Below are positions 5,995 through 31,139 of a stretch of DNA of 31,279 nt, piece after piece. Both the position numbers and the translations under genes were made by a program. The DNA is from a virus. The notes under the pieces were generated by a model, which saw only the letters and a list, made by a program, of their open reading frames with translations, had not been told where the DNA came from and did no database searches. The DNA is taken from positions 1 to 31,279 of IMG/VR virus record IMGVR_UViG_3300032224_000083. The stretch is one strand, 5' to 3'. Numbering within the stretch: position 1 is the first letter of the stretch; each line of letters opens with the position of its first letter.

Positions 5995-7160
5995 TGCAAA
6001 CAGTAGGCTTGAAATTACATAACCCACACCCAGCGCAAAAGCAAGTACTTGACTGCGATAGTAGGTTTATTGTAATGATGGCAGGTAGAAGATTTGGCAA
6101 GTCATTGATTAGCCAAACTATAAGCATAGAAACTGCGGTTAATAAAAAGCGTGTAGCATACATTACACCTACTTATCAATTAGGTAAAATATTCTTTAAG
6201 GAGATAGTAGACCTATTACCATTGGAGATATACTCTAAGAACGAGAGCGACCTGGTAATTACTTTTATTACGGGTGGCAGTATACGCTTCTTTACAGGCG
6301 AAAGGTTAGACAATCTTAGAGGTTTAAAGTTTCACTTAGCAGTAATAGACGAAGCTTCTTTTATACCTAATCTTGAAGACGGGTGGCTCAATTCAATAAG
6401 ACCTACCTTAACAGACTATAAGGGTAAAGCAATATTCCTAAGCACCCCTAAAGGTAAAAACTACTTCTTTAGTTTGTTTAGCAAAGCAGAACCCGATTGG
6501 CAAAGCTTTAAGTTTACGACATACGATAACCCATATATAGACCCTAACGAAATAGACGATGCAAGGAAGCAACTCCCAGAGGTTGTGTTTGAGCAGGAGT
6601 ATATGGCAAACCCTGCCGAAAACGCAGCTAACCCATTTGGTAGCCAACATATTCGAAAGTGCATACACCCAGTAACAACAATGCCCGTAGTGGCTTATGG
6701 AATTGACTTAGCAAAATCTGTCGATTGGACAGTTATAGTAGGATTAGACGAAGACGGAAATGTAGCTTATTTTGACCGCTTCCAAATGGATTGGCACAAT
6801 ACCAAGCAAACTATCCTTAGGCTGCCTAAATGCCCTATCCTTGTCGATAGTACGGGTGTTGGAGACCCGATACTCGAAGACCTACAAAGAGAAGGGGTAA
6901 TGATACAAGGCTTAAAGTTCACAAGTTCAAGTAAGCAACAACTTATGGAAGGCTTACAAGCTGCGATACATCAAGGGAAAATAGGCTATCCTGAGGGCAT
7001 AATAAGCCAGGAGTTAGAAGTATTTGAGTATCAGTACACGGCAACTGGGGTAAAGTACTCAGCACCTTCAGGCTTTCACGATGATGCGGTAACTGCTCTT
7101 GCATTAGCTTTGCAGAACTTCAGCCTTAAGCGTGGCACGGGTAGGTACAATTTCCTATAA
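5994..7160 (+). CDS. terL: Terminase large subunit
   Basis: The 388-residue product contains the packaging ATPase and the headful or cos nuclease. The Walker A motif is AGRRFGKS (30-37), Walker B with the catalytic Glu is LAVIDE (115-120), and FLSTPKG (about 148-154) is the coupling motif. The RNase H-like nuclease acidic residues are Asp238 in GIDLA, Asp285 in LVDSTGVGD and the Asp pair in FHDD (363-364). At 388 residues it is a compact form, but all core motifs are present. It acts at the portal of the empty prohead; in this genome the portal gene lies 11 kb downstream rather than next door. Confidence 0.95.
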   Translation: MQTVGLKLHNPHPAQKQVLDCDSRFIVMMAGRRFGKSLISQTISIETAVNKKRVAYITPTYQLGKIFFKEIVDLLPLEIYSKNESDLVITFITGGSIRFFTGERLDNLRGLKFHLAVIDEASFIPNLEDGWLNSIRPTLTDYKGKAIFLSTPKGKNYFFSLFSKAEPDWQSFKFTTYDNPYIDPNEIDDARKQLPEVVFEQEYMANPAENAANPFGSQHIRKCIHPVTTMPVVAYGIDLAKSVDWTVIVGLDEDGNVAYFDRFQMDWHNTKQTILRLPKCPILVDSTGVGDPILEDLQREGVMIQGLKFTSSSKQQLMEGLQAAIHQGKIGYPEGIISQELEVFEYQYTATGVKYSAPSGFHDDAVTALALALQNFSLKRGTGRYNFL

Positions 7161-7189
7161 TTTACCGCTTATCCTTAATATTTACCGCT
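7161..7189 (+). repeat. Short direct repeat after the large terminase gene
   Basis: TTTACCGCT occurs at 7161-7169 and again at 7181-7189, exactly 20 bases apart, right after the terL stop. It could be a protein-binding site pair such as a packaging or regulatory site, or chance in AT-rich DNA. Confidence 0.35.
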
Positions 7190-7213
7190 AATCACAATTT
7201 TAGAAAAAAGTTT

Positions 7214-7252
7214 CACAATTTGATTGTGGAATGTGAAAAGGTTGTATATTTG
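7214..7252 (+). promoter_or_regulatory. Bacteroidota-type promoter with an operator-like palindrome
   Basis: TATATTTG at 7245-7252 fits the -7 consensus TAnnTTTG exactly. TTTG at 7219-7222 lies 22 bases upstream, close to the usual 19-21. A perfect inverted repeat CACAAT-TTG-ATTGTG (7214-7228) covers the -33 box, and TTTCAC (7211-7216) pairs with GTGAAA (7233-7238) as a second, differently centred repeat. A repressor or activator binding here would control the small-gene cluster beginning at 7284, which has a 31-base leader. Confidence 0.55.
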
Positions 7253-28772: not shown

Positions 28773-28975
28773 TGGACAGTAAAATATTAGCAGCAGTAAT
28801 AGAAGATATGCGTAGGCGTGAACTTGTAGGGAAATCAAAGTATGGAACTACAATGGATAGAACAGATTTAAGCACAGGACAATGGATAACGCATTTGAAA
28901 GAGGAACTGCAAGATGCAATACTTTATTTAACCAAATTAGAAACTATACACAATGCGCCTCAAGAAGATATTTAG
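28772..28975 (+). CDS. Small MazG/diphosphohydrolase-like protein
   Basis: The 67-residue product (MDSKILAAVIEDMRRRELVG, then KYGTTMDRTD and WITHLKEELQDAILYLTKLE) matches short phage proteins annotated as dATP/dGTP diphosphohydrolase-like or MazG-like. The KEELQDA helix would supply metal-binding acidic residues, and the KYG segment is typical. It may shape nucleotide pools. The protein is too short for a full MazG and could be a stand-alone helical module. It overlaps the acetyltransferase gene by 23 bases. Confidence 0.55.
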   Translation: MDSKILAAVIEDMRRRELVGKSKYGTTMDRTDLSTGQWITHLKEELQDAILYLTKLETIHNAPQEDI

Positions 28976-29384
28976 CTTTGGCAACATATTAGATAAAGAT
29001 ACCTACGAGCAACTAAGGGAATTAGATTATACCAATCCTAACTTTAAGGGTTGCGCTGACGAGTTCCAGTACAATCGTGAATGGTGGGTTATGCTTGATG
29101 ATATGAGCCGAATTGTTGCTTATTGCGGCTCAATTTATTCTAAAGGCATTTGCATTTTCAATAGAGCGTGGGTTAGAAAAGATTATAGAGGGCAAGGCAT
29201 ACAAAGGCGAATGATTAAGACCAGGTTAAAGGCAGCATCTACTTTTTGCCATATAGCAATTACTTACACAACACTTGATAACTTCCCAAGTGCTAATAAC
29301 CTAATCTCTTGTGGGTTTAGGCTTTACTTACCTGAATATTCTTATGGTGGGTACGATAAACTTTACTTTCAAAAGTTACTATAA
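28953..29384 (+). CDS. GNAT-family acetyltransferase
   Basis: The 143-residue product has NRAWVRKDYRGQGIQRRMIK around residues 70-89, the acetyl-CoA-binding R/Q-x2-G-x-G/A loop of GNAT enzymes, followed by a helix and a strand (FCHIAITYTT). A GFRLY strand lies near the end. Phage GNATs acetylate host or phage proteins, and some act on modified DNA bases. The target is unknown. The start has the ACACAATG leader seen at 7284-8203. A terminator follows the stop. Confidence 0.75.
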   Translation: MRLKKIFSFGNILDKDTYEQLRELDYTNPNFKGCADEFQYNREWWVMLDDMSRIVAYCGSIYSKGICIFNRAWVRKDYRGQGIQRRMIKTRLKAASTFCHIAITYTTLDNFPSANNLISCGFRLYLPEYSYGGYDKLYFQKLL

Positions 29385-29387
29385 AAG

Positions 29388-29407
29388 GTAGTAATAATAC
29401 TACTTTT
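29388..29407 (+). terminator. Hairpin terminator before the early control region
   Basis: GTAGTA (29388-29393) pairs perfectly with TACTAC (29398-29403) around a four-base loop, and TTTT follows. The stem is short and AT-rich, so efficiency is uncertain. Confidence 0.55.
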
Positions 29408-29459
29408 AGTAAAGATTTACCTTTACTTTATTACAATTTTAGTCAAGTTTTAGCTTTAC

Positions 29460-29495
29460 TTTGTACGTATATGCGTACAATCCTACGTATATTTG
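29460..29495 (+). promoter_or_regulatory. Early promoter with a palindrome and a direct repeat
   Basis: TATATTTG at 29488-29495, followed by C, matches TAnnTTTGC exactly. TTTG at 29460-29463 is 24 bases upstream, somewhat far. Between them GTACGTATATGCGTAC (29463-29478) is a palindrome with one mismatched pair. TACGTATAT is repeated at 29464-29472 and 29484-29492, 20 bases apart. This suggests a regulator bound at the promoter, with two sites on one helix face. Confidence 0.6.
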
Positions 29496-29510
29496 CAACA
29501 TTATTGCAAA
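29492..29510 (+). promoter_or_regulatory. Second inverted repeat over the -7 box
   Basis: TTTGCAA (29492-29498), loop CATTA, TTGCAAA (29504-29510) is a perfect seven-base inverted repeat that includes the TTTG of the -7 box. It could be an operator, or a hairpin at the 5' end of the transcript. Confidence 0.5.
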
Positions 29511-29525
29511 AATAAATTTAATAAT

Positions 29526-29565
29526 TTTACACTTTGTATTGTTAATTGTAGTAGATTTGTGTAAA
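29526..29565 (+). promoter_or_regulatory. Possible second early promoter between spaced inverted repeats
   Basis: TAGATTTG at 29552-29559 fits TAnnTTTG. No TTTG lies at the right distance: TTTG at 29533-29536 is 15 bases away, and TTTA at 29526-29529 is 22. TTTACAC (29526-29532) and GTGTAAA (29559-29565) are perfect inverted repeats bracketing the element. The leader to ATG 29579 would be short. Confidence 0.45.
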
Positions 29566-29578
29566 CAAAACACAAACA

Positions 29579-29785
29579 ATGACACATTTAACCTCTTACC
29601 AAGTGTTTCAGTACCACGTTTACGGGAACATTTTACTGCAAGACGGGAGCAGTACACAAAACCCACACGACCCGAGATTACTACCTAAGAATTACGATTA
29701 CGAAGATGACGATTACACCTTCACTCGATGGGTAGAAAACAATGCAGAACTTGAACTTTTAAAAACCGAATTATATGAAGATTGA
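29579..29785 (+). CDS. First early gene, small acidic unknown protein
   Basis: The 68-residue product (MTHLTSYQVFQYHVYGNILL) ends in a very acidic stretch (NYDYEDDDYTFTRWVENNAE). No family is recognised; acidic small early proteins sometimes mimic DNA or bind host enzymes, but nothing specific supports that here. It follows the control region and has an A-rich leader (CACAAACAATG). It overlaps the next gene by 11 bases. Confidence 0.55.
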   Translation: MTHLTSYQVFQYHVYGNILLQDGSSTQNPHDPRLLPKNYDYEDDDYTFTRWVENNAELELLKTELYED

Positions 29786-29990
29786 ATTTGTAAAAGAAAC
29801 TAACCATAGAGGCGATGTTTACTATTATACAACAGTAGAAGGTCGCTACCAAAAGGACACTATATCTTTGGACTACTCACAAGCCTATGAATTATTTATA
29901 GCTATGAGAAAAAAACAAGAGCCAACTATTGAAGTGTTAGAACATTATATTATTGACGAAACAAAACCAGAAACAAATGAGCCTAATTAA
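29775..29990 (+). CDS. Small early protein of unknown function
   Basis: The 71-residue product (MKIEFVKETNHRGDVYYYTT) is strands followed by a helix (SLDYSQAYELFIAMRKKQ) and an acidic tail. No motif is recognised. It overlaps the start of the ERF gene by 14 bases. Confidence 0.55.
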   Translation: MKIEFVKETNHRGDVYYYTTVEGRYQKDTISLDYSQAYELFIAMRKKQEPTIEVLEHYIIDETKPETNEPN

Positions 29991-30510
29991 AATTCAACAG
30001 GAATTAAAAGCACCTAAAAACCAATTCAATGCTTTTGCTAAATACAAGTACCGAAGTGCAGAAGATATTATCGAAGCTGCAAAGCCTATCTGCCATAAGT
30101 ACGGATATGCTTTAATGTTAAGTGACGAAGTAATAGAAGTAGGCGGTCGGGTATATGTAAAGGCTACGGCTTCTCTAAGTAATGGAGTAGATAACATTAC
30201 CTGCACAGGTCTTGCTCGTGAAGAGGAAAACAAAAAAGGAATGGACGCTTCGCAGATTACAGGAGCAGCAAGTAGCTATGCCAGGAAGTACGCACTTAAC
30301 GGATTGTTTGCAATAGACGACACCAAAGATGCAGATGCTACCAATGAGCATAAAGACGAAGTAAGCGAAGGACAAAAAGCTTTTTTGATAGAGCAGTTAG
30401 ACAAGACAAAGTTTACGGAAGACCAAAAGATTAAGGCTGCTTTAAAAATCAATGCCATTAAGACATTAGACGAATTTAACAAGATTAAAGAAACAATAAA
30501 GAAAAGCTAA
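29977..30510 (+). CDS. erf: ERF-family single-strand annealing protein
   Basis: The product is 177 residues from ATG 29977. An in-frame ATG at 29953 would add eight residues within the previous gene and is less likely. It has the ERF core: FAKYKYRSAEDIIEAAKPIC, YGYALMLSDEVIEVGGRVYV, then GMDASQITGAASSYARKYAL, the most conserved ERF segment. The C-terminal 60 residues are charged and helical. ERF proteins anneal complementary strands and drive phage recombination and concatemer formation. It probably works with the exonuclease at 28038. It shares one base (TAATG) with the next gene. Confidence 0.9.
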   Translation: MSLIKIQQELKAPKNQFNAFAKYKYRSAEDIIEAAKPICHKYGYALMLSDEVIEVGGRVYVKATASLSNGVDNITCTGLAREEENKKGMDASQITGAASSYARKYALNGLFAIDDTKDADATNEHKDEVSEGQKAFLIEQLDKTKFTEDQKIKAALKINAIKTLDEFNKIKETIKKS

Positions 30511-30773: not shown

Positions 30774-31009
30774 TGAGAGAATTGCTACCATTTGAAAGGC
30801 AGATGCTACTTGCAGAAGTTTACCACTATGCTTGGTATAGTGAAGTAGCTTACAAAGACCTTTTAGAGTTTATAGAAAAATATCAAAACGTTATAGACAA
30901 ACCAGTTTTTTTTAACCCAATCAATAACAATGACACAGAAACAACGCATCTTGAACCACTTGCTTTCGGGCAAAACATTGACACCAATCCAGGCTTTGAC
31001 GAAGTTTAA
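30773..31009 (+). CDS. Small early protein of unknown function
   Basis: The 78-residue product (MRELLPFERQMLLAEVYHYA) has two helices (AWYSEVAYKDLLEFIEKYQN) and then a stretch that overlaps the HTH gene by 80 bases. The first 52 residues look natural; the tail after about 30930 may be imposed by the overlap. No family is recognised. Confidence 0.45.
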   Translation: MRELLPFERQMLLAEVYHYAWYSEVAYKDLLEFIEKYQNVIDKPVFFNPINNNDTETTHLEPLAFGQNIDTNPGFDEV

Positions 31010-31139
31010 TAGCCTGAGATTATCGGCAGTTATCTTTGAACTTAAACGCAAAGGATATAAGATACAGTCCGATTTAATTAACGTAGGTAACAAGAAACAA
31101 CCTAAATTTGTAAGTAAATATTCACTAATAAAAAAGTAA
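30930..31139 (+). CDS. HTH_39-type winged-helix protein
   Basis: The 69-residue product (MTQKQRILNHLLSGKTLTPI) has a clear helix-turn-helix, QALTKFNSLRLSAVIFELKR, followed by a KGYKIQSD wing strand, matching small phage winged-helix proteins of the HTH_39 type. It probably binds DNA and could be the regulator of the palindromic sites around 29463-29565, or a replication accessory. It overlaps the preceding frame by 80 bases. Confidence 0.7.
   Translation: MTQKQRILNHLLSGKTLTPIQALTKFNSLRLSAVIFELKRKGYKIQSDLINVGNKKQPKFVSKYSLIKK

Follow-up and report, generated by a model that had tools for sequence, protein, structure and literature searches.

A Zur-type palindrome upstream of the early promoter in a phage family of probable Bacteroidota hosts suggests a tie to host zinc state

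A 15-bp palindrome of Zur type stands upstream of the early promoter in most members of a phage family whose hosts are probably Bacteroidota, at distances that differ by one turn of the DNA helix. Promoter and box, their conservation, the match to upstream regions of one host Fur clade and the one-turn spacing can be read from sequence comparison, and from them we infer that a host regulator binds the phage site and activates there, that zinc is its metal and that zinc controls the phage. As a whole, the pattern suggests that the zinc state of the host is linked to the expression of phage genes. Our preferred reading, held tentatively and with its chances put just short of even, is that the host zinc regulator is an upstream activator of the early promoter and, in relatives, also of a late one. 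The wider proposition, that in several Bacteroidota phage lineages early and late genes are under positive control of the host zinc sensor and infection runs in zinc-replete cells, is possible, though we rate it as somewhat doubtful.

A promoter between two gene blocks

The window, i.e. the whole stretch of DNA analysed, is a linear virus record of 31,279 bases, whose features are collected in Table 1. Family scans took in the ORFs of the + strand, those of the − strand (at most 158 aa) being left out. Judging by gene content, the upstream block would be late and the downstream block early. The ATG start of the Erf-like gene lies inside the frame listed at 29953. Elsewhere in the window, a phosphoadenosine phosphosulfate reductase-like gene at 1478-2179 (phrog_424, 1.1e-43) is a possible auxiliary metabolic gene.

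Table 1. Genes and predicted control elements of the window
Feature	Position	Strand	Basis or remark
Terminase genes	5.6-7.2 kb	+	Profile scan of + strand ORFs
Late promoter TTTG-N22-TATATTTG	7219..7252	+	Behind terminase; predicted
Virion genes (tape-measure-like, portal, tail, others)	~13.5-25.5 kb		+ strand ORFs scanned
Lysozyme, DNA-polymerase-type exonuclease, GNAT protein	up to 29384		+ strand ORFs scanned
GNAT acetyltransferase gene, last of upstream (late) block	28953..29384	+	Pfam Acetyltransf_7 2.5e-6
Terminator-like hairpin AAGGTAGTA-ATAA-TACTACTTT	29385..29406	+	Short T run
26-nt direct repeat, two copies	29404..29462	+	Spacing 33; variable module
GTAC palindrome TTGTACGTAT/ATGCGTACAA	29461..29480		Second conserved palindrome
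Zur-type box TGCAAC-ATT-ATTGCA	29494..29508		Predicted site; one mismatch to TGCAAC-N3-GTTGCA
AT-rich spacer, box to -33	29509..29525	+	10 bp longer in other relative class
-33 position, TTTA in the window	29526..29529	+	
-7 box TAGATTTG of early promoter	29552..29559	+	22-nt spacer
orfA, first early gene	29579..29785	+	No family match
orfB	29775..29990	+	No family match
Erf-like single-strand annealing protein	29977..30510	+	Pfam ERF 4.4e-35; phrog_155
HTH_39 winged-helix protein	30930..31139	+	Pfam HTH_39 3.1e-10

The 194 bases between the two blocks (29385-29578) had been singled out by a sequence-only reading as a palindrome-rich control region. Every element listed there is present at its place, and the order of terminator-like hairpin, promoter and orfA/orfB/Erf is that of a control region. 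The density of palindromes is indeed unlike the rest of the window: none of 622 segments of 194 bases, taken at 50-base steps, reaches the region's inverted-repeat score of 13, and the next best, with a score of 12, all overlap it. Dinucleotide shuffles of the region equal its score in 36 of 1000 cases, meaning that part of the repeat richness is a matter of AT composition.

Conservation was judged in relatives collected from IMG/VR by scans with the GNAT and Erf proteins, of which the best 80 of 191 and the best 80 of 369 confirmed matches, respectively, were used. GNAT lies upstream of orfA in 134 of the 150 resulting loci (the window's own included), and the 134 GNAT-to-orfA intergenics reduce to 93 distinct sequences of 145-789 nt, the window's being one of them; kinship makes these 93 far fewer independent events. 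A scan of genome contigs with the Erf protein, aimed at the host, gave 32 loci with identities of at most 64%. The minimal layout is seen in three intergenics of 145-147 nt (beginning GTAGTATTTTT or GTAGCATTTTT), which consist of hairpin, GTAC palindrome, TGCAAC palindrome, AT-rich spacer and promoter, in this order; long intergenics have, by eye, extra small ORFs ahead of the terminator. As a side observation, the intergenic region is a mosaic in which the same short palindromic and repeat modules recur in differing combinations and copy numbers, so that its length ranges from 145 to 789 nt in phages with GNAT proteins of 90-99% identity. The small ORFs between GNAT and terminator occur in L009, L149, L145, L014 and others, and one of them (MENETKPEITRLEVINHA... 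and variants) recurs.

Conservation of the listed elements had been named as the test of their importance, and it holds for two of them. The arms of the hairpin, whose fold (29376-29414) reaches -11.3 kcal/mol with a z of -3.6 and whose T run is only TTTTA, are kept in 88 (strict) to 91 (loose) of the 93 sequences, and the 16-base palindrome GTACGTATATGCGTAC (29463-29478) recurs as GTAC-N8-GTAC in 89. Its left arm is mostly GTACG, its right arm varies between CGTAC, TGTAC and AGTAC, and its distances to the promoter are scattered. The remaining elements did not survive the comparison: the exact TAnnTTTGC at 29488 (TATATTTGC, 29488-29496) is found in the window's sequence only, as is TAnnTTTGCAA, and the nine-base repeat TACGTATAT at 29464 and 29484, with its 20-base spacing, is likewise kept in one of the 93. 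The pair TTTACAC (29526-29532) and GTGTAAA (29559-29565), which flanks TAGATTTG, was rejected as an operator, being kept in three of the 93 (TTTGCAC/GTGCAAA in 11). The seven-base inverted repeat TTTGCAA/TTGCAAA at 29492-29510 is real, and its exact form is limited to seven of the 93; it is part of a wider 15-bp box, TGCAAC-N3-GTTGCA, that is kept far more broadly.

The -7 box of the early promoter had been placed at 29488. Instead, it is the TAnnTTTG at 29552 that is present in all 93 sequences, with varying nn, ending 16-19 nt before the start of orfA. The consensus described for Bacteroidota sigma-A promoters is TTTG / TAnnTTTG, with mapped transcripts beginning 4-5 nt downstream of the -7 box and a -33 element reported to be weak in F. 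johnsoniae (PMC6847099); by this Flavobacterium rule, transcription is predicted to start near 29564. In addition to the -7 box, the phage family shares the -33 TTTG in 76 of the 93 (TTTA in 14, TATG in two and TTTT in one). It differs in a spacer of 22 nt between the two elements, and the window itself departs from the -33 consensus with TTTA. Part of the family also has a second TAnnTTTG-like stretch (TAGTTTTG/TACTTTTG) 30 bp upstream of the -7 box, with offsets of 28 and 38; if this were a true promoter, the Zur-type box would overlap it.

The pattern TTTG-N20-24-TAnnTTTG, which is loose and also matches by chance, occurs in all 25 long relatives (0-3 matches per strand in the reversed control). 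Among the matches listed, the early promoter shows it in 18 relatives and a second, late-type promoter in 17.

Two further roles had been suggested for the region. A sigma-like protein was proposed as its regulator, and no sigma-factor family was found among the + strand ORFs scanned. That palindromes and repeats mark a replication origin is very improbable: the region is AT-rich, full of such elements and upstream of the early genes, and its 1-kb bin has a GC skew of 0.000, but the skew is positive on both sides, no iterons are conserved and the shortest relatives lack the 33-nt repeat unit.

The palindrome in the family and in other phage contigs

The 15-bp box is exact in 46 of the 93 sequences and present with at most two mismatches in 87; in the window its centre (29501) lies at about -63 from the predicted start. 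The other six sequences keep the promoter without the box, which is therefore not essential. From the start of the box to the -7 element the distance is 57/58 in 33 sequences and 68 in 54, with none between, and 10-bp slippage could be the source of the two classes. The weak -33 TTTA is found in 14 of the 33 sequences with the nearer box and in none of the 54 with the farther one, as expected if an activator compensates for it; shared descent could also produce this. A role of the palindrome in RNA structure was rejected: among the listed variants, as far as the eye can tell, changes in the arms are one-sided and none is paired across both, and Rfam gave no match at gathering score.

The box is not confined to the early promoter. 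Of the 25 long relatives, 23 have it with at most two mismatches, 12 of them in one copy and 11 in two to four; the reversed control gives 0-3, and single extra matches at two mismatches are not significant. It lies at 68 in the late promoters of L238, L235, L261 and L268 and at 46 in those of four relatives (4 records). Ahead of the late promoter, two ATTTACCGCT repeats at 20-base spacing are present in the window (7160 and 7180; span 7160-7193) and in L267. These apparently replace the Zur-type box of other relatives' late promoters, in what looks like a swap of regulatory sites.

Searching for the box followed by a promoter, with 8-38 nt allowed before the -33 element, returned 110 stretches, whose distinct sequences have spacings of 17 nt (16), 27 nt (41), 26 nt (one, L213) and 22 nt (two, one of them read inside coding sequence). 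When only the box and its AAAATA flank were required, at least 120 stretches matched. Contigs that lack homologues of the early-region genes hold at least 47 viral occurrences of this extended box. Only 13 of these 47 have TAnnTTTG at 43-73, and several are located within genes or belong to phages that have no such promoters. A third scan, at 43-73, in which a single base served to leave out the family's early promoter, yielded 13 stretches with distances of 47, 47, 49, 58, 58, 58, 59, 59, 67, 68, 68, 68 and 68. Contigs were clustered by blastn/blastp for distances of at least 40 only (tblastx merged nearly all contigs and was not used), which gave 14 clusters within 43-73. Leaving out the window family's own cluster, dropping L372 and L373 (which look like chance or in-gene matches) and merging L370 with L371, two ends of one contig, reduced these to ten contigs.

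In these ten, which are partial stretches and some of which share genes with each other, the box-to--7 distances are 47, 47, 56, 58, 58, 58, 58, 59, 59 and 67. Their one-turn phasing has R 0.86, with p 7e-5 against a uniform spread over 43-73 and 9e-5 against a single broad preferred distance. In five of the contigs (L213, L281, L283, L300 and L370) no protein matches the window, and their distances of 58, 58, 58, 59 and 67 give p 0.009; L302, L304 and L369 have one or two faint protein matches, while L303 and L310 have the window's terminase in common at 62-67% identity. Family and contigs combined, the box occurs at 46-47, 56-59 and 67-68 upstream of the -7 element, one helical turn apart. 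With the T of the -7 box taken as -12 (PMC6847099), the box centres lie near -52, -63 and -73.

When no minimum distance is set, other phage contigs contribute nine rows in which box and TAnnTTTG are 21-29 bp apart, the box thus being over the promoter. This overlapping position, seen in L309, L320, L281, L302 and L213, is like that in hosts, and the genes concerned are possibly zinc-repressed phage genes. Other variants were seen besides. L280, L307, L312 and L314 have a longer symmetric form, TATTTTTGCAAC-N3-GTTGCAAAAATA, with no TAnnTTTG promoter nearby (one-sided in L323), which warns against taking every copy of the palindrome for a Zur-type site. In L281 (twice), L287, L294, L308 and L319 the box is part of a common longer motif, approximately AAAGTTATG.AATTGCAACAATGTTGCAAAAATATTTTTT, with differing sequences downstream, as if a regulatory cassette were spreading as a unit. 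The box was also sought in isolated phages, among 50,697 records. The matches listed, 23 of 23, 20 of 191, 23 of 23 and 30 of 72, are weak (best listed E 5e-3), with Flavobacterium, Prevotella and Cellulophaga records partly outside them. Of the two loci read, that of Chryseobacterium phage MA9V-2 has a half site only and that of Bacteroides phage DAC16 is without the box; an isolated phage that carries it may yet exist.

The palindrome in Bacteroidota genomes

The box sequence TGCAACNNNGTTGCAAAAATA is present in three of 395 Bacteroidota genomes (control 0), each time directly ahead of a Fur-family gene. At a threshold of 1e-10, a Fur homologue was found in 33 of 118 genomes. Among the 30 loci fetched, some of which are near-identical to each other, 11 have the box (10-12 of 12 positions) 20-76 nt before the start codon, and the other 19 match at most nine of the 12 positions. 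At the same loci, 179 permuted motifs reached 10 positions 0.2 times on average and twice at most. The 11 box-bearing genomes hold 17 exact boxes in seven genomes (control 1), of which nine are at Fur-family genes, one at a COG0523 GTPase gene, two in genes and three elsewhere, two not having been viewed. That a Zur motif of similar kind may be known already served as a lead only.

A box with a promoter downstream of it occurs in 10 of the 395 genomes (control 1). Seven of these matches are at MerC, FUR, SCO1-FUR or COG0523 genes, one is at a TonB receptor gene, one precedes a decarboxylase gene and one is in a gene, so that zinc-type neighbours account for seven of the ten, or eight with the TonB receptor; Pfam was run for L376, L381, L382 and L360, and L377-L379 were judged by likeness. 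The Pfam families near host boxes are cobW, MerC, FUR, SCO1, TonB plug and GTP cyclohydrolase I. Judged by this gene content, the host genes with the box are a Zur-type zinc regulon. Two of the Fur-family proteins were scanned, and their NCBIfam Fur-family matches are below the cut-offs, that for Zur included, so that zinc as the metal is taken from the neighbouring genes; the best solved structure for one of the two is the zinc regulator FurB, 2o03. As to position, the box covers the promoter in 24 of 32 host box-promoter rows, with distances of -13 to +35 between its start and the -7 element, and eight rows have it at 44-66. The host matches of box plus promoter lie at 43, 44, 54, 57 and 63-66, of which only 57 falls in a phage distance group.

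Activation, its alternatives and known systems

In our preferred reading, the region is the junction of two transcription blocks: the hairpin would terminate the late block, and the early one would start from a promoter of host sigma-A type (-7 TAGATTTG). As a dimer, the host's zinc-sensing Fur-family regulator would bind the 15-bp palindrome outside the core promoter, on the face of the DNA that RNA polymerase also occupies, and would help the polymerase start early transcription, probably with sufficient zinc and in its metal-loaded state. The box positions, upstream of the core promoter and in one-turn steps, are those of class I activation.

A different activator, i.e. a CRP/FNR-type host protein or a phage factor such as HTH_39, might recognise a nearly identical palindrome. 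E. coli CRP class I sites, which centre at -61.5 (PMC5957442), have a similar geometry, and HTH_39, which had been suggested as the binder, is kept in 101 of the 102 relatives with enough downstream sequence. We nevertheless hold this to be unlikely: in hosts the palindrome goes with one Fur clade and with genes of zinc type, and HTH_39 is kept in all four checkable relatives among the six without the box and was not found in 12 box-bearing, partial contigs outside the close family. A host Fur/Zur-type regulator is the better candidate.

Improbable, too, is that the host Zur-type regulator binds the box and represses, by contact or looping, with the early genes waiting for zinc shortage in the host. 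Zur is classically described as a repressor (PMC6103462), and host boxes lie mostly over promoters. The nine near-promoter rows in other phage contigs fit repression there. In the family and the ten contigs, however, the box stands outside the core promoter and its positions step by one turn, an arrangement that blocking does not need. We would give still less credit to a decoy that titrates the host regulator or to a recombination leftover, either having no direct effect on the promoter. The mosaic nature of the region and the relatives without a box would suit it, but not the one-turn spacing beyond the family or the box at two different promoters in relatives.

If true, activation by the host zinc regulator would be a transcriptional link from a host metal sensor to phage gene expression that is common to several phage lineages. 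A Zur-type operator for Bacteroidota is, moreover, proposed here from sequence alone. Among the papers listed from an open-licence library we found no description of either the zinc-sensor/phage link or the Bacteroidota operator; the box may be catalogued, RegPrecise and most of the subscription literature being outside that scope.

Among known systems, the zitB gene of Streptomyces has a Zur box upstream of the -35 element through which it is activated (PMC6103462). It differs from the phage case in being a host efflux gene, described in that account with no phage and no series of helical positions (PMC6103462). A 7-1-7 palindrome is one described form of Zur boxes (PMC6103462). The phage box, in its commonest forms TGCAACA-N-TGTTGCA, shares the 15-bp inverted repeat with these boxes of the Fur family, and in Bacteroidota it precedes Fur-family, COG0523 and MerC genes. 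The difference is one of position, the box being upstream of the promoter in the window's family, not over it. To our knowledge, its sequence is unlike the Zur motifs of other phyla. Compared with CRP class I promoters, the phage palindrome, which we take not to be the CRP consensus and which is without sign of a CRP-type binder, shares a location near -63 (or -73), at positions one turn apart.
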